Assembly: GCF_000174355.1 (NCBI RefSeq)
Contig: NZ_ACIS01000001.1
Coordinates: 186,001-250,000 of the forward strand
Length of the DNA stretch: 64,000 nucleotides
Origin: Pseudogulbenkiania ferrooxidans 2002
GTDB lineage: Bacteria; Pseudomonadota; Gammaproteobacteria; Burkholderiales; Chromobacteriaceae
Direction: 5' to 3'
Both the position numbers and the translations under genes were made by a program. Under the pieces are notes generated by a model that made no database searches, was not told where the DNA came from, and worked only from the letters and a program-made list of their open reading frames with translations. The first letter of the stretch is position 1; each line of letters opens with the position of its first letter. Positions 57,219 to 63,950 of this stretch are shown one piece after another.

Positions 57219-57343
57219 GGGCTATTAATCTGTGGTGCCTTGTTTTGCCAGACTTTCTAGCAATGGCGCGGGTTTTGTTGCGATTTTCGGGGTGTCGTCA
57301 GTATGCGAACTAGCACGAAGTAATGCGAAGTTTTGACGCCTTG

Positions 57344-57381
57344 GTGCTACGATAGTGCTACCGAAAACAGCAAAGTGCTAC
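57344..57381 (+). repeat. Direct repeats GTGCTAC x3 (candidate integrase arm sites)
   Basis: GTGCTAC at 57344, 57355 and 57375, with a related inverted CTAGCAC near 57310. They lie between the tRNA and the integrase gene, as arm-type binding sites of tyrosine integrases do. Confidence 0.5.
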
Positions 57382-57395
57382 GCGCCGTAACACCG

Positions 57396-58697
57396 ATGGC
57401 ATCAATTATACCGATCAAAGGGAAGTGGCGGGCAACCGTCCGTATCAAGCAGGGCGGCAAGCTCGTTTTTCACAAGTCGATGACGCATGACACCAAGCGC
57501 CTAGCGGAGCAGTGGGCGCTGGATGTCGAGGCCAAGGCCCGGACCGAAACGGGTTTGGCTGAGCTGTTGGCGCGGGAGGGCTCGCGCGGGGTGCTGGTGC
57601 GCGACCTGATCGGCAGGTACATCCAGTATGTGGGAAAGCTCAAGCCGCTGGGGGCAACGAAGTCGGCGGTACTGAATACACTGGCGGCCTCGGACCTTGG
57701 CGATAATCCAGTCACGGCAGTGACGGCCGGCGTGCTGCTGGACTATTGCAACAAGCGACGCGAGAAGTACGGCAATAGCGCCGCCACCATCGCGCAGTAT
57801 TTTGGCTATCTTCGGCAGGTGTTCGACCTGGCAAAGCCGGTGTGGGGTATCGGCGTCAGTGCAGCGCCGTTTGATGAGGTGCGGCCGGTGTTGCTCAAGC
57901 TGGGGCTGATTGGCCAGGGTAGTGAGCGTGACCGCCGGTTGGTGGGTGATGAGTACGCCAGGCTATTGAAGTGGTTTGAGAACTACGACGCAACCCGGGC
58001 GCGTGAGCTGCGCATGGCACCGGTGTTCCGCTACGCAGTGGCAATGGCAGCGCGGCGTGGAGAGATTGTCGGCATCCTGCGGTCTGACGTGGACCGCCAG
58101 GCGCGCACGGTGGTGGTGCGTAATCGGAAAGACCCGCGCAACAAGATCGGCAACGACCAGGTGCTGCCGCTACTGGGTGAGGCTTGGGGTATCGTTGAGG
58201 CGCAGCTGGCCAGCCACGACGACTTGCGCGTATTCCCTTATACCGAGATCAGTATCAGTACATGCTTCCAACGGGCATGTGAGGTGCTGGGTATCGAGGA
58301 TCTGCATTTTCACGATCTGCGCCACGAGGGAACCAGTCGGCTGTTTGAAGCGGGGTACAGTATTGAGCAGGTGGCTCTGGTGACGGGGCACAAGACGTGG
58401 AACATGCTGCGCCGTTACACCCAGCTCCGGCCGGCGTCGCTGCATGAGCTGCCGGCTGCGGCCAACCTTGGCGGCAATGGTGGCGGTGTTGCGGTGCCAG
58501 AGGTCGACGCCAAGCCCAGGGTCAGGAGGCGGCGGTGGGTGGTGAAGACTGCGGATGGCTTCCTGGTGGGTATGGATGGAGAGCTGGGGTGGGTGGATGA
58601 TGAGGCGTCCGCCAGTGCCTGCGTATCGGAAGCCGAGGCGCAAGTTCTGGGTGAGTCGTCTGGTGAGATGTTTGAGATAGTGCGGGTATTAGTGTGA
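57396..58697 (+). CDS. Tyrosine recombinase / prophage-type integrase
   Basis: 433-aa integrase. N-terminal arm-binding region (1-65), core-binding domain (about 66-165), catalytic domain with Arg in AARRGEIVG (about 219), HDLRHEGTSR (about 306-315), GHKTW (about 331) and tyrosine in RRYTQL (about 340). After the tyrosine there are about 90 further residues, with a basic patch and an acidic end; most such enzymes stop soon after the tyrosine. It sits next to tRNA-Arg(CCU) and marks the left end of a mobile element. Confidence 0.92.
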   Translation: MASIIPIKGKWRATVRIKQGGKLVFHKSMTHDTKRLAEQWALDVEAKARTETGLAELLAREGSRGVLVRDLIGRYIQYVGKLKPLGATKSAVLNTLAASDLGDNPVTAVTAGVLLDYCNKRREKYGNSAATIAQYFGYLRQVFDLAKPVWGIGVSAAPFDEVRPVLLKLGLIGQGSERDRRLVGDEYARLLKWFENYDATRARELRMAPVFRYAVAMAARRGEIVGILRSDVDRQARTVVVRNRKDPRNKIGNDQVLPLLGEAWGIVEAQLASHDDLRVFPYTEISISTCFQRACEVLGIEDLHFHDLRHEGTSRLFEAGYSIEQVALVTGHKTWNMLRRYTQLRPASLHELPAAANLGGNGGGVAVPEVDAKPRVRRRRWVVKTADGFLVGMDGELGWVDDEASASACVSEAEAQVLGESSGEMFEIVRVLV

Positions 58698-58985: not shown

Positions 58986-59504
58986 ATGCGCGGTTATCAC
59001 GGAACTTGTAAATCAAAGTGGCCACTCATACGAATGAGGGGCTTTAATTTTAGCAATGATCCCAAAGATTGGCTTGGGATGGGTGTTTATTATTTTGTTG
59101 ATGGTGTTATGTGCCCTGTCGAGGCTAGTGAGCGCTGGGCGTCTGTATTTAAGAGTCACCGTGATCCTTGTGTATTAGAGTCAGTTTTTAAGTTTGATTT
59201 TGATTATGTTCTAGACTTGCGGGATGAATCTGATCTAAAGGATTTCAATAAGGTAAGAGAGTACTTCTGTTCCAAGCTTGAGCTTGATAAAGGGAGGAAA
59301 AAGGCCTTTGATAGAAAAATAGTTTGCGATGCAATTTTGGAGTATGTTGGTGCCCAAGCTGTAATTAATCGAGAATACATTTCTGCTGTTGCGCCGAGTC
59401 CGGCAGAAAGAGAGCTTGCATTGGGGATGCCCAGTATTCCAAATTGCACGATAATGGCTGTTAGGGATAAAAGTAAAATTGAACAGACGCGCGTGTTCAG
59501 ATAA
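58986..59504 (+). CDS. ADP-ribosyltransferase-fold toxin-like protein (CmdT-like candidate)
   Basis: 172-aa AT-rich gene. The N-terminus shows the PARP/ART pattern: YHGT (residues 4-7), MRGFNFS (17-23) and LGMGVYYF (30-37), matching the H and Y positions of the H-Y-[EQ] ART fold. No signal peptide. Directly followed by a 79-aa gene and a SecB-like chaperone gene. This order fits toxin-antitoxin-chaperone systems, notably CmdTAC, whose toxin CmdT ADP-ribosylates mRNA to block phage growth. The third catalytic residue and target are not seen from sequence. No good ribosome site. Confidence 0.65.
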   Translation: MRGYHGTCKSKWPLIRMRGFNFSNDPKDWLGMGVYYFVDGVMCPVEASERWASVFKSHRDPCVLESVFKFDFDYVLDLRDESDLKDFNKVREYFCSKLELDKGRKKAFDRKIVCDAILEYVGAQAVINREYISAVAPSPAERELALGMPSIPNCTIMAVRDKSKIEQTRVFR

Positions 59505-59519
59505 GAAAAGGAATTGAAA

Positions 59520-59759
59520 ATGAAAGCCATGTTTGCGAAGGCATTGGAAAAACTACAACAATCAACGCCTGAAGAAATTTATGAGTTTGTTGCTAGGCAC
59601 GCAGAGACAATGGATCAGCGTGCACTACACGCTCGTTATTTTGATCTGGAAATAAGCTTGATTGAGTCAATTTCCATTGGCTCTGGAGTTTTCGTTGCTG
59701 CTGGAGAGAGGCATTCTAACTGCGCAGCACGGTCAGATGATTACAAACTGGCGGCGTAA
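59520..59759 (+). CDS. Small protein, candidate antitoxin of the cassette (CmdA-like)
   Basis: 79-aa, AT-rich, 15 bp after the ART-like gene with AGGA before its ATG, and 3 bp before the SecB-like gene. An N-terminal helical part (KALEKLQQSTPEEIYEFVAR) and a more hydrophobic middle with IESISIGSGVFVAAG. In toxin-antitoxin-chaperone systems the antitoxin has a C-terminal segment that makes it depend on the SecB-like chaperone; the glycine-rich and hydrophobic end here would suit that role. No family recognised; assignment rests on context. Confidence 0.55.
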   Translation: MKAMFAKALEKLQQSTPEEIYEFVARHAETMDQRALHARYFDLEISLIESISIGSGVFVAAGERHSNCAARSDDYKLAA

Positions 59760-59762
59760 GTA

Positions 59763-60176
59763 ATGTCGGAAAAAGAACAGCTTACGCTTCAGCTTGCAAA
59801 AACTGTCGCAGAAAGTTTTTCTCTTGTGAGCTTTGATGGTGATTCTCACAAGGATGTTCTTTCTGTTGGCGCTAGATTTGATGAAGGCTCGCCGCAACAT
59901 TTTTCAATAGTTTTTGATTTGTCGCTGCTGGCTGATTCTTGCAAAGAACTGTCAGTCGTGTATTGTGCTGATTTCAAGCTGAATAGGGATGTCGATCGAG
60001 ATTGGGTTGATAATTCGCCTTTTGCGAATGTTAATGCGCCTGCAATTGCCTATCCTTTTTTACGGGCATTTGTCGCAAATATCATGCTTAACTCAGGGTA
60101 TGAGCCCGTGATGCTTCCTGCGCTGAATTTTCAAAGTAGATTTAACGAAAAGAAGGCCGCAAGGTCTGCAGAATAA
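59763..60176 (+). CDS. SecB-like chaperone (candidate CmdC-like component)
   Basis: 137-aa protein with a SecB-fold signature in its C-terminal half: NAPAIAYPFLRAFVANIML then NSGYEPVMLPALNF, comparable to the CPNILFPYARE...PVNF end of SecB. It is not the housekeeping SecB: it lies in an AT-rich island cassette after the ART-like and 79-aa genes. In TAC systems such chaperones protect the antitoxin and can be triggered by phage proteins. It ends at a strong terminator. Confidence 0.75.
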   Translation: MSEKEQLTLQLAKTVAESFSLVSFDGDSHKDVLSVGARFDEGSPQHFSIVFDLSLLADSCKELSVVYCADFKLNRDVDRDWVDNSPFANVNAPAIAYPFLRAFVANIMLNSGYEPVMLPALNFQSRFNEKKAARSAE

Positions 60177-60257: not shown

Positions 60258-61106
60258 CTATGCCGCCGTGCCGGCCGCGAACAGCCCTGCACCGTGAAGT
60301 GCTGCACTGCATGCTGGGTTTAGCCAGATGACTTCGGTGCGAGCCTTTGCGCCATCGGCAAGTGCCCTGCATTCATGCCGCTCCCAGTCGGCGAACAGTT
60401 CCTGGTCGTACAGTTCGCACGGATACCCCGACAGCACCACCATGCCGCGCAGCTCGCGCAGGCCTGCGGCCAACTGCCGGTGATCGTCGTCGCTCATTTC
60501 ATGCCGGTACGCCGGTGCCCGGGTGCGCAGATTGCGTGTGCTATGCACATAAGGCGGATCAACGTAGTGCAGAGTGGTTTCCGAGTCGTGATGCTGCATG
60601 CACTGCAGCGCATCACGGTTTTCGATGACTACGCCACGGAAACGGTCAACTATGCTGGCCAGCGCGCTGGGGAAGTCGGCCCAATCGTGTGCCGGCGTCT
60701 TGTTGGAGCGGTTACTGTTCGCCCGGAAGCCTGTGCTTTGCCCCGATGCGCCGGCGCTGCCAAAGCCCATGTAGGACCTGACGAGTGTGCGGCGGGCCTG
60801 CTCAATCGGATCGGCGCTCTCCTGATATGCCTGTTTGAACTCCTCGCGGGCAAACGGCGTAAGTTCGACCTGGCGCACCAGTTCATCGCCGCTGTCGCGC
60901 ACTACTCTGAACAGGTTTACCACTTCGCCGTCCAGGTCGTTGTACACCTCGGCGTGTGAGCGATCCTTGCGCAGCAGCACGCTGCCACCGCCGCCAAACG
61001 GCTCAACGTAGACTCGATGTTCCGGCAAAAATGACAGGATCCATGGCGCCAATCTGAATTTGCCGCCGTGGTAGCGCATTGCCGGGCGCGTGATATTGCT
61101 TGTCAT
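60258..61106 (-). CDS. D12-class DNA adenine methyltransferase (Dam-like, phage type)
   Basis: 282-aa N6-adenine methyltransferase. SAM loop VEPFGGGGSVLLRK with the N-terminal RYHGGKFRLAPWI (motif X), and catalytic DPPY in LHYVDPPYVHST. Between lies the target-recognition part. Likely protects the element DNA from restriction or modifies GATC-like sites; no partner endonuclease gene is seen. It overlaps the next small gene by 4 bp (ATGA). GC-rich, unlike the toxin cassette. Confidence 0.9.
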   Translation of the reverse strand: MTSNITRPAMRYHGGKFRLAPWILSFLPEHRVYVEPFGGGGSVLLRKDRSHAEVYNDLDGEVVNLFRVVRDSGDELVRQVELTPFAREEFKQAYQESADPIEQARRTLVRSYMGFGSAGASGQSTGFRANSNRSNKTPAHDWADFPSALASIVDRFRGVVIENRDALQCMQHHDSETTLHYVDPPYVHSTRNLRTRAPAYRHEMSDDDHRQLAAGLRELRGMVVLSGYPCELYDQELFADWERHECRALADGAKARTEVIWLNPACSAALHGAGLFAAGTAA

Positions 61107-61267
61107 GCGGCACCGCCTTTCTTGCCGTGCATACCGGCAGTGGCGTACTGGTACAGCTCATCTGCCCGGCGCTTCGCCTCGTTGGCCGCGTACTGGCAGC
61201 CCTGGCCTTTGCGTCGGCCGCAGTAGCCGCCGCAGGTGCGGCATTTCGGTTTCTTCGTGGCTGCCAT
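61103..61267 (-). CDS. Small Cys-rich protein (54 aa)
   Basis: 54 codons with KCRTCGGYCGRRKGQGC near the N-terminus, a zinc-ribbon-like cluster, and a basic end. It overlaps the Dam-like gene by 4 bp and shares one base with the gene before it, so it is probably translated. Function unknown; small zinc proteins are common in phage operons. Confidence 0.6.
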   Translation of the reverse strand: MAATKKPKCRTCGGYCGRRKGQGCQYAANEAKRRADELYQYATAGMHGKKGGAA

Positions 61268-61674
61268 CACGCACCGCCTTCCTGCAGGGTGGTCGGCAGG
61301 TAGATCGCCCGGGCCTTGCTTGGCGCGCGCGGTGTTGGCTTGTCAGTCTTGCCACAGTCCACCCGCGCCGCCAGCAGCGCGGCCCACTCCGTTTTCCCGT
61401 TCGGCACCACAACGTGGCTGTCACCGTCGTACAGCTTGCCCAGCGTGCCATCGCTACGGCGGTAGTACGGCGTGCCACGCGACAGCTTGGCGGCCTCGGC
61501 CTTCTTCACCGCGATGCAGCAGCCGTGCGAGCAAATGCCGCGTGCTTCCTGTTCGCTGTACAGGCCTGCTTTCTCGATGCAGATCGTGTAGCCCTTGCTG
61601 TCCGGGCGCCACCAGGTGATGTGTTCGTGGTCTTTGATGGTGTGCCCGATGTGGGCAATCAGGTATTCGCTCAT
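61267..61674 (-). CDS. Hypothetical phage-type protein (135 aa)
   Basis: 135-aa protein beginning MSEYLIAHIGHTIKDHEHIT, with cysteines in GICSHGCCIAVKKAEA and a Pro/Lys-rich C-terminus. I do not recognise its family. It sits between the C5 methyltransferase and the small Cys-rich gene, 1-bp coupled to the latter. A hairpin lies upstream. Confidence 0.65.
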   Translation of the reverse strand: MSEYLIAHIGHTIKDHEHITWWRPDSKGYTICIEKAGLYSEQEARGICSHGCCIAVKKAEAAKLSRGTPYYRRSDGTLGKLYDGDSHVVVPNGKTEWAALLAARVDCGKTDKPTPRAPSKARAIYLPTTLQEGGA

Positions 61675-61693
61675 CGTTATTCCTGAAAAAGTG

Positions 61694-61714
61694 AGGCCAC
61701 CGTTCTGGTGGCCT
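61694..61714. repeat. Hairpin AGGCCACC...GGTGGCCT between C5 methyltransferase and next gene
   Basis: 8-bp perfect stem with loop GTTCT. A matching hairpin lies at 63572-63594 upstream of the methyltransferase gene. No T run follows either. Confidence 0.55.
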
Positions 61715-61719
61715 GATGG

Positions 61720-63552
61720 TTACGCTGCCTGCAGCTGGCGCTGCTTGAGTTCCTTGTGGCTCCACGCGGCCAGATCCATGCAGTTGGCCTCAATGAGTGC
61801 TTGCGCCGGCCCGGGGCTGACGCTGTTGCCAACCATGCGTACCTGCGCCGTCTTGGTGAACGGCCTCCCGTCGTGGCCGCGGTCGATGATGTAGCTGGCC
61901 GGAAAGCCCTGGCACAGATACAGCTCGCGCGGCGTCAGCATGCGCAGGCAGATGTCCACGATCACGTATGGCTCGCCTTTTACCCATACAGTGACCAGCG
62001 CCAGCCGGTCACGGGTGGTGGCGGTCGGCATCGGCTGATCCACGCCGCTCACGTTGTCGGTGCCGTAGTAGCTGATAAGGAAGCTGGCGCAGCGCAGGGC
62101 AGCGTCCTCGTTTTCCTTGCTCAACATGTACGACGCGACGGCGTGGTGCTCGGCGCCGGCGGTGATGGCCGCCATCGGTGCGTTGAACTCACGGCCAAAG
62201 CAATTGCGGCGCAGGGTTACCAGGTGCGCGGCTACCAGCTGCTGCTGGCTGCCGGTGGTGGTGATCGTGGTCGCGGGCTCGTCCAGGCTGCGGCCAACCG
62301 TCTGATTGAACCCGCCGTTGGCTTGCATCAGGTAAGCGGTAGCCAGCGCCTGACCGCCGCAGCCAGATGCGGTGATGGTGTTCACCGGGCCAGTGGCCGG
62401 CTTGCTGCCATCGCCCCAGCGCTGCGCGCGCCCGGGCTTGCCTTCGCCGTGGGCGGCCTGCACAAGAACCGGCATGGCAACGGCAATTTCGCCGCGGTTG
62501 GCCGCAGTGATAGTGCGCACCGGCTCCATGGAGTCATGCACACGGTCGCCGCCCTGGTGCGTCAGCGGAACCAGTGACGGTTGCGCTACTGCAAAGCTTC
62601 CGCCCTTTGGGTGGGCGGTGATGGTGTTCAGCGGCTGCTCGATGTCATGCACACCGTTGCGGTTGCTCCAGTTGGCTAGCTCCACGATGAACGGCTTGGG
62701 GGTGTTCAGCACGTACTTGTGCATGCCCTTGGCGATGCGGCGCAGCGTGGCATCAGCCAGCGGCTTCTTGCGGGTGAAGATAGATTCGCCCAGGTTGCTG
62801 AAATCGATGTGGTCGGCGGCAGCGCGCCAAGCTTTTTGCCCTTTTTTGGGCTGCTTGAAGTGCGTCGGTTCGGGCCAAACAATTGGCCGTCCATCCCGGC
62901 GCGCAAACAGGAACAGGCGTTCGCGCGTGGTGGCAGCGCCGTAGTCGGCTGCGTTCATCAGGCGGTATTCAACTTGGTATCCCAGCTGCTCCAGCACGCT
63001 GACGAATCGCCGCCAGGTGCGGCCAACGTGTTTCGGGTCTGGGACGAGAAACTGCTGTTGCACTGGCACGCGCTCGCCAGGGGCGGCCACGGTGCCATCC
63101 AGCTTCATCACGCGCCCGGTCTGCTTGCAGCGCTTTGCGATCAGTGGCCCCCACTGCTGCATTTGCTTGACGTTTTCCATGCTGATGCTGCGCGGATGCA
63201 CCTGGCCGGCCCAGCGCGGTATCACCCAGCCAAGGCCGCGGATCTTCTTGTCGCGCGGCTGGCCGCCGATGGCCTGGCTGAAATGCGTGCAGTCCGGGCT
63301 GCCGTGCAGGTGGCCAACCGGGCGGCCGCGGGTGGCGGTGCGCGGGCAGACCTCGAAAACGTCGGCGCAGTAGTGCTCCGTCTGCGGGTGGTTCGCCTCG
63401 TGCATGCTTATCGCGTCACTATCGTGGTTGATAGCGATGTCCACGTGGCGGCCAAGAGCGTGCTCAATACCGGTGGATTTGCCTCCGCCACCGGCGAACA
63501 GATCGACAATGATTTCGTCGGTCGTCAGCAGGCTGAATTGTTCTCTGACCAT
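61720..63552 (-). CDS. Phage-type DNA cytosine-5 methyltransferase
   Basis: 610-aa enzyme. Motif I VDLFAGGGGKSTGIEHAL, catalytic motif IV as HGSPDCTHFSQA (Cys about residue 88; D-C replaces the usual P-C), motif VI SMENVKQM (about 125), motif VIII RERLFLFARR, closing motifs IX-X with LTPRELYLCQGFP and MVGNSVSPGPAQALI. Between about 310 and 530 there are six degenerate repeats built around P-x-x-T-I-T. This large repeated middle takes the place of the target-recognition domain. It lies in the mobile element, with no restriction enzyme seen; a protective role is likely. Confidence 0.9.
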   Translation of the reverse strand: MVREQFSLLTTDEIIVDLFAGGGGKSTGIEHALGRHVDIAINHDSDAISMHEANHPQTEHYCADVFEVCPRTATRGRPVGHLHGSPDCTHFSQAIGGQPRDKKIRGLGWVIPRWAGQVHPRSISMENVKQMQQWGPLIAKRCKQTGRVMKLDGTVAAPGERVPVQQQFLVPDPKHVGRTWRRFVSVLEQLGYQVEYRLMNAADYGAATTRERLFLFARRDGRPIVWPEPTHFKQPKKGQKAWRAAADHIDFSNLGESIFTRKKPLADATLRRIAKGMHKYVLNTPKPFIVELANWSNRNGVHDIEQPLNTITAHPKGGSFAVAQPSLVPLTHQGGDRVHDSMEPVRTITAANRGEIAVAMPVLVQAAHGEGKPGRAQRWGDGSKPATGPVNTITASGCGGQALATAYLMQANGGFNQTVGRSLDEPATTITTTGSQQQLVAAHLVTLRRNCFGREFNAPMAAITAGAEHHAVASYMLSKENEDAALRCASFLISYYGTDNVSGVDQPMPTATTRDRLALVTVWVKGEPYVIVDICLRMLTPRELYLCQGFPASYIIDRGHDGRPFTKTAQVRMVGNSVSPGPAQALIEANCMDLAAWSHKELKQRQLQAA

Positions 63553-63623: not shown

Positions 63624-63893
63624 TCATACCTGGCTGCGTTCCCATGATCTACGCGCAGCGTCGTGGCGCTCGTCGATCAGCTTGGCTAGGTCGTCGATGT
63701 GGACGTGGCGAGGGCTTTGGCGGCTGGGGCCGACGCGGTAGGTCGGCAACGGCAGCTTGTTGAGGGTGGCCAGACGGTTGGCCTCGGCGATGCTGACGCC
63801 GAAATGCTCGTCGCAGATGTTGGCGAGCGGGATGCTGGGGGTTTGGTGCTGGGCCATGAGTAGCCAAGCGGTGCGATTGGTTTTGTTTTCCAT
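63624..63893 (-). CDS. PrtN-like transcriptional activator (pyocin activator family)
   Basis: 89-aa protein: TAWLLMAQHQTPSIPLANIC, then HFGVSIAEANRLATLNKLPLP and HIDDLAKLIDERH, the shape of the pyocin activator PrtN family. In Pseudomonas PrtN turns on pyocin genes after RecA-mediated loss of PrtR. Here it may control phage-like genes beyond the window. Start at 63893 by family N-terminus; an in-frame ATG at 63944 is possible. Confidence 0.75.
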   Translation of the reverse strand: MENKTNRTAWLLMAQHQTPSIPLANICDEHFGVSIAEANRLATLNKLPLPTYRVGPSRQSPRHVHIDDLAKLIDERHDAARRSWERSQV

Positions 63894-63950
63894 GTTGGTC
63901 TCAAGTAACGAGTGCCCGTGAGTCATGGGCGTGTTCTTGTGCATGGCGCG

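Follow-up and report, generated by a model that had tools for sequence, protein, structure and literature searches.

A prophage-borne C5 cytosine methyltransferase of Pseudogulbenkiania ferrooxidans 2002 and the putative exchangeable, non-redundant recognition cassettes of its family

The gene considered here encodes a multi-unit C5 cytosine methyltransferase of 610 aa and lies at 61720..63552 on the minus strand of a 64,000-nucleotide stretch of Pseudogulbenkiania ferrooxidans 2002 DNA (contig NZ_ACIS01000001.1, positions 186,001 to 250,000), hereafter called the window. Comparison with its relatives indicates that the product is probably a prophage-borne, orphan, multispecific anti-restriction enzyme, equipped with recognition cassettes that are non-redundant and exchangeable. 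Recognition of several targets is supported by four features of the family: the number of units varies, whole units are exchanged, duplicate classes are avoided and the candidate recognition loops are class-specific. Further support comes from the relaxed specificity published for relatives of the enzyme, as given in extracts of the reports (PMC5537653, PMC3925955). The first-pass annotation had proposed either several targets or an unusual one, and it is the former that the comparative evidence favours.

The assignment of the enzyme class relies on the open reading frame (ORF), on profile matches and on the structural match to M.HhaI. The ORF is intact, with an ATG start and zero internal stops. 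The protein matches PF00145 with 106.1 bits, above the curated cut-off of 22, and PHROG 116 (DNA methyltransferase) with an E value of 1e-95; against the NCBIfam model TIGR00675 (dcm) it scores 83.7 bits, below the cut-off of 100.65. Alignment with relatives locates the C5 methyltransferase motifs I, IV, VI, VIII, IX and X, all present and in order on the minus strand: motif I, which binds S-adenosylmethionine, DLFAGGGGKS (aa 17-26, 63475..63504); motif IV, SPDCTHFS (aa 85-92, 63277..63300); motif VI, SMENVKQM (aa 124-131, 63160..63183); motif VIII, AATTRERLF (aa 206-214, 62911..62937); the motif IX region, RMLTPRELYLCQGFP (aa 537-551, 61900..61944); and motif X, VRMVGNSVSPGPAQ (aa 571-584, 61801..61842). 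The catalytic C88, the E126-N127-V128 triad of motif VI and R210/R212 are invariant across alignment A1 (51 sequences). Motif IV, preceded by G84, reads as first annotated, that is, SPDCTHFS rather than PPCQ. A Pro right before the catalytic Cys is usual in C5 methyltransferases, though not known to be essential; in the window protein this position is occupied by D87.

The target-recognition domain of C5 methyltransferases sits between motifs VIII and IX, and it is here that the window protein carries its array of units. The pattern P-x-x-[TA]-[IA]-T occurs at residues 307, 344, 389, 426, 459 and 507, with spacings of 37, 45, 37, 33 and 48 residues. The six degenerate P-x-x-T-I-T repeats recognised in the first-pass annotation are borne out, the first four copies being exact and the last two degenerate (PMAAIT and PMPTAT). 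In 20,000 shuffles of the whole protein the motif turns up 0.065 times on average and at most twice, so six are far beyond chance. A family unit profile delimits the array at residues 287-523, in agreement with the range of 310-530 given in the first-pass annotation, and pairwise identity among the six units is 15-41%. In order, they belong to classes C-D-I-B-J-A: unit 1, class C (aa 287-325, 62578..62694); unit 2, class D (aa 325-361, 62470..62580); unit 3, class I (aa 361-407, 62332..62472); unit 4, class B (aa 405-443, 62224..62340); unit 5, class J (aa 441-475, 62128..62232); and unit 6, class A (aa 489-523, 61984..62088), all on the minus strand and assigned by profile and classes. Unit 6 is probably the fixed unit adjoining the core. 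A Pfam scan of aa 285-480 alone, covering the interior units, listed no family. As in multispecific C5 methyltransferases, one catalytic core is combined with several tandem units, six here, in the recognition region.

The six window units seeded the unit profile, which was then widened over a sample of the nearer relatives, the scans having supplied the best 80 matches each. From 320 loci, seven truncated ones (L064, L065, L092, L100, L225, L281 and L299) were dropped, and removal of 46 exact duplicates from the 313 full-length loci left 267 proteins; L001 was excluded, its match being 100% identical to the window gene. These proteins contain three units (1 protein), four (11), five (56), six (46), seven (51), eight (85), nine (15) or ten (2), and their length gains 35.8 aa per unit (r = 0.93). 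Clustering of the 1795 units yields 51 classes, which form 143 distinct arrays. The interior classes swap order (D-E in 38 cases and E-D in 19; E-I in 24 and I-E in 14), and class C leads the array in 168 of its 170 occurrences. Class A is the final unit in 266 of the 267 proteins, a regularity that speaks for an improbable alternative in which only this last unit, adjoining motif IX, recognises DNA and the others are insertions, binding, for example, a replication or packaging protein. The diversity of class A is no argument against that alternative, as its mean pairwise identity (0.56 among 79 thinned proteins) is comparable to that of the other classes (0.49-0.65). The nearly fixed first and last units may be structural, so that the window protein may have four, not six, variable readers.

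Whole units are gained, lost and exchanged within the family. In a DNA alignment, L098 lacks exactly one unit (36 aa) of L204, while L072 lacks an in-frame stretch of 70 aa, corresponding to two units, of L060, the DNA that flanks the gap being identical. A single unit is replaced between L180 and L316 and between L307 and L086, the genes being otherwise about 90-95% identical; in the latter pair, the spacer adjoining the replaced unit differs too. Relative to the window protein, L007 (core identity 85%) has a class H unit at the slot of D, and in L002 (core identity 89%) an uncalled unit-like stretch and a class K unit replace D and I. The cores are at least 95% identical in 415 pairs, which are not independent of one another; 163 of these pairs have unequal numbers of units, 117 show a replaced slot and 135 are otherwise alike. 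The replacements were counted at a minimum unit length of 30, because an apparent difference between classes U and K in L256 and L262 proved to be a class-calling artefact, the genes being nearly identical there. A single target-recognition domain embellished by noise is ruled out by this gain, loss and swapping of whole units. Against the alternative of a single DNA-reading unit, class A is common to almost all members and would leave the exchange of the other units unexplained.

The arrays are also non-redundant in composition. A class is repeated within the array in 4 of the 143 arrays, compared with 54 +/- 5 (minimum 38 in 1000) in shuffles that exchange classes among arrays at matching length and position; looser shuffle nulls give 74 and 89 arrays with a repeated class. 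After thinning to one protein per core cluster at 90, 80 and 70% identity, repeats are found in 3 of 121, 2 of 79 and 2 of 46 arrays, versus 40, 20 and 11 in the shuffles. Finer clustering of the units into classes gives repeats in 1 of 147 arrays, versus 46-50. The natural explanation would be that nothing is gained by carrying a class twice, which is expected if class equals target. A competing and unlikely explanation is that of a relaxed-specificity enzyme, in which the array as a whole serves as a single extended surface that strengthens binding to DNA, the units have no separate targets, and the word methylated, in many contexts, is very short or degenerate (e.g., one C of CC). Modules that only add affinity should tolerate duplication, yet at the chosen class cut-off hardly any array carries a duplicate.

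All 15 large classes have P19 and T22 as consensus residues of the 36-position unit. The stretches flanking P-x-x-T, positions 6-11 and 26-30, contain most of the difference between classes and little variation within them, while positions 12-14 vary both between and within classes. M.HhaI has one recognition loop before Thr250 and another at Thr250, and class-specific positions on both sides of P-x-x-T are what would be expected of two loops reading DNA. Every class keeps its own loop residues, which argues against a mere affinity surface. Furthermore, the framework P and T of class A recur in the interior units, whose variation falls in the same two stretches, an observation at odds with recognition by the last unit alone.

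Two AlphaFold2 (AF2) models were obtained, the first from alignment A1 and the second from 136 sequences chosen for unit register. In the second model the core is confident, with most 10-residue blocks up to residue 280 above a predicted local distance difference test (pLDDT) score of 85, and the last unit (10-residue blocks 481-530) is modelled by AF2 at a mean pLDDT of 55-87. Comparison of the AF2 model with M.HhaI gives Z 27.4 and 2.8 Å over 283/327 residues; 1fjx, the entry for its T250G mutant, shares the top rank with other structures, and the rows of the structural search mostly cover the core. In the model, the best-predicted part corresponds to a single-domain M.HhaI-like enzyme, which is a point in favour of the last-unit alternative. 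Unit 4 shows strands at 405-412 and 435-442, with low confidence.

The acidic residue of motif IV characterises the family and not the window gene. Of the 267 distinct proteins, the window's own included, 261 have Asp and 6 have Glu directly before the catalytic Cys, and a D-C motif peculiar to the window gene is thereby ruled out. An early count of 65 sequences, which took in the truncated L065, found SPDC in all, and a set of 143 sequences gave SPDC in 141, SPEC in one and SSEC in one. One of the six peptides used in one search was WFHMSPDC, so loci from that scan lean to SPDC; the other scans used peptides without it, and the 143-sequence set predates the WFHMSPDC scan. Outside the family, 3g7u, the one solved enzyme aligned at motif IV in the printed alignments, has PPC, and Pro likewise precedes Cys in the two phi3T enzymes (PPC and FPC). 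Among six distant phage relatives, Glu precedes Cys in five (Gordonia, Mycobacterium, Arthrobacter and Cellulophaga phages and the haloarchaeal phiH), and Ser in the Bradyrhizobium phage protein (SPSC). The acidic residue in all 267 proteins and in five of the six distant phages therefore marks the family. The D-C motif gives no sign of the unusual target that the first-pass annotation had considered, an acidic residue being present throughout the family, also in the ARM81 phage enzymes reported to form 5-methylcytosine (m5C).

That this residue denotes another chemistry, with transfer of a non-methyl group or no transfer at all, is very improbable. The constancy of Asp or Glu in the family, its counterpart in the distant phages and the Pro of 3g7u and of both phi3T enzymes are in its favour. 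On the other side, the ARM81 relatives, which have SPDC, are reported as m5C enzymes, according to the extract of a secondary source (PMC5537653); the phage carboxymethyltransferase CmoX has SPPC, as given in part of PMC12783734; and one distant relative has SPSC. CmoX (372 residues) resembles the window protein in being a phage enzyme of the C5-methyltransferase fold (8yf3 versus the model, Z 26.3), yet the window protein has SPDC in place of the SPPC that CmoX combines with a carboxylate-binding Arg (R350 of SpCmoX). C5-methyl transfer would be the probable activity of the window protein.

The six distant relatives (L362-L367) mostly have the acidic residue and at least two unit-profile matches, the Cellulophaga phi4:1 protein having one. 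This distribution suggests an old family reaching actinophages, a Cellulophaga phage and a haloarchaeal virus. The phiH record X80164 (L365) annotates two genes, dcm5a (283-1020) with PECTHFS and dcm5b (1041-2168) with the unit-like repeats; this split reflects a genuine two-gene arrangement or else a frameshift in X80164.

On sequence grounds, the window enzyme belongs to a phage family that includes relaxed-specificity enzymes. The Aeromonas proteins phiARM81mr_p29 and phiARM81ld_p31 (38-40% identity to the window protein) have SPDC and five units each, and the consulted portion of PMC5537653 describes them as relaxed-specificity m5C enzymes; an extract of PMC3925955 describes two Paracoccus enzymes likewise. 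The Paracoccus proteins JCM7686_0772 and JCM7686_2655 are placed in the family solely through their identity of about 69% to Pyei1_p05, as stated in a passage of PMC6536676, and Pyei1_p05 itself has SPDC, eight unit matches and 33% identity to the window protein. Like the window protein, with which they share the sequence relationship and the unit array, the ARM81 and Paracoccus enzymes are orphan phage enzymes with SPDC and 5 or 8 units; their unit sets differ from that of the window protein, and the portions of their papers at hand mention neither repeats nor recognition arrays. In the same extracts (PMC5537653, PMC3925955), protection assays point to many sites, and it is these reports that speak for the relaxed-specificity explanation. 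The gene of ARM81mr_p29 adjoins replication genes, as the extract of PMC5537653 also states, a setting in line with interior units that bind a replication protein. Pseudomonas phage F116 gene 10, a cytosine methyltransferase with 53% identity, SPDCTHHS and eight units, has again a different unit set, and the literature listing for it contained no function paper.

The multispecific C5 methyltransferases of Bacillus phages, of the SPR, phi3T and rho11 type, are comparable in being orphan phage enzymes with several recognition units per polypeptide. The phi3T enzyme of 444 aa, which we take to be the multispecific one, has Pro before the catalytic Cys, whereas the window family has an acidic residue, 3-10 units per protein and 51 classes. 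The unit profile gave at best 2.1 bits against this phi3T enzyme (E 0.024 for two sequences), and the match in a profile comparison was confined to the core, residues 86-282, both being weak tests for 36-residue units. The arraying of multiple target-recognition domains in a single polypeptide by Bacillus phages is already known, according to part of PMC12707154; what is new is the combinatorial, non-redundant array architecture in a wide family. No description of the unit arrays of this family was found in the open-licence PMC literature searched.

The preferred interpretation, a multispecific anti-restriction enzyme, can be formulated as a mechanism. Small target-recognition units would be strung together on one catalytic core (motifs I-VIII and IX-X). 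Each of them is probably a short beta hairpin, with two loops that flank P-x-x-T-[ILV]-T and vary by class. The loops of one unit at a time would contact DNA, and this unit would bring its own short word, which contains a cytosine, into the only active site of the core. The array would represent a non-redundant set recombined from a phage-shared pool of dozens of cassette classes, and phage DNA could be protected in this way from several host restriction endonucleases simultaneously.

Several results weigh against this interpretation. The hairpin in each unit is weakly supported, because the interior units remain at a pLDDT of about 28-62 even with 136 sequences, the repeat region having scored about 28-47 with alignment A1; the structure prediction recommended in the first-pass annotation has accordingly delivered the core and the last unit, but not a confident fold for the interior. 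Duplicates become commoner at coarser class cut-offs (0.62-0.70), with 31 of 133 to 76 of 120 arrays repeating a class, while the shuffles remain higher at 81-98. The low within-class variation of the loop positions is partly built in, because the classes were made by similarity, although the placement of the variable blocks in the unit is not. In 6 of the 267 proteins, an uncalled gap of at least 25 aa lies between interior units, where divergent units were missed. Relaxed specificity and partial protection are also compatible with loose recognition rather than several exact targets, and the m5C homologue Phi2LM21_p23 gave zero protection in E. coli, according to an extract of PMC5537653. Finally, the window family and the Bacillus phage enzymes appear alike in design, but shared cassette ancestry was not found.

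A wider generalisation is possible, though tentative: tailed phages may share dozens of cassettes of ~36 residues that plug serially into one core, each class having its own word, with selection keeping the sets non-redundant and the array amounting to a list of the restriction specificities met. Should every class read one word, the array of any family member would predict its targets, and new combinations of cassettes could be designed to lay down a desired pattern of cytosine methylation. Once decoded, the cassettes would make phage anti-restriction repertoires readable from sequence and provide a toolkit for cytosine methylation. An old question, whether C5 methyltransferase specificity is encoded as one unit, one word, is thus made testable.

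The methyltransferase gene sits in a prophage with a contractile tail, whose integrase lies at 57333-58697; the CI-like repressor, terminase, tail sheath and tape measure genes of the same prophage are outside the window. Upstream of the methyltransferase is a PrtN-like/excisionase-like gene (63624..63944, minus strand; PF11112, E 3e-19; PHROG 1300). Directly 3' of the methyltransferase gene, at 61267-61674 on the minus strand, is an ORF of 135 aa with PHROG 23101 (E 1e-8) as its sole match and no function assigned. The host's own genome contains one family match. Profile matches are present in 25 of 61 genomes of the host's family and are strong (E < 1e-100) in only six (G000, G001, G013, G017, G025 and G032), so the presence is sporadic, like that of a phage gene. 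Matches were obtained in 343 of 50,697 phage records, some being GenBank/RefSeq doubles, and 242 of the 343 span at least 80% of the query. The best 80 matches kept of the bacterial scan include named genomes of several phyla.

A D12-class N6-adenine methyltransferase gene (60258..61106, minus strand; PF02086, E 6e-22) belongs to the same prophage gene cluster and lies near the C5 gene. The F116 counterpart (L081) is set between two annotated adenine methyltransferase genes, and C5 and N6 modification seem to go together in some phages (window 60258-63552; F116). Beside the integrase, at 58986-60176 on the plus strand, is a three-gene cassette resembling the PD-T4-9 defence system, which we take to be the CmdTAC toxin-antitoxin-chaperone system. 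Its first gene (58986-59504, plus strand) weakly matches PD-T4-9_A (E 4.5e-5), the middle gene (59514-59759, plus strand) has no PADLOC match, and the third (59763-60176, plus strand) matches PD-T4-9_C (E 1.4e-34) and SecB (E 2e-8).
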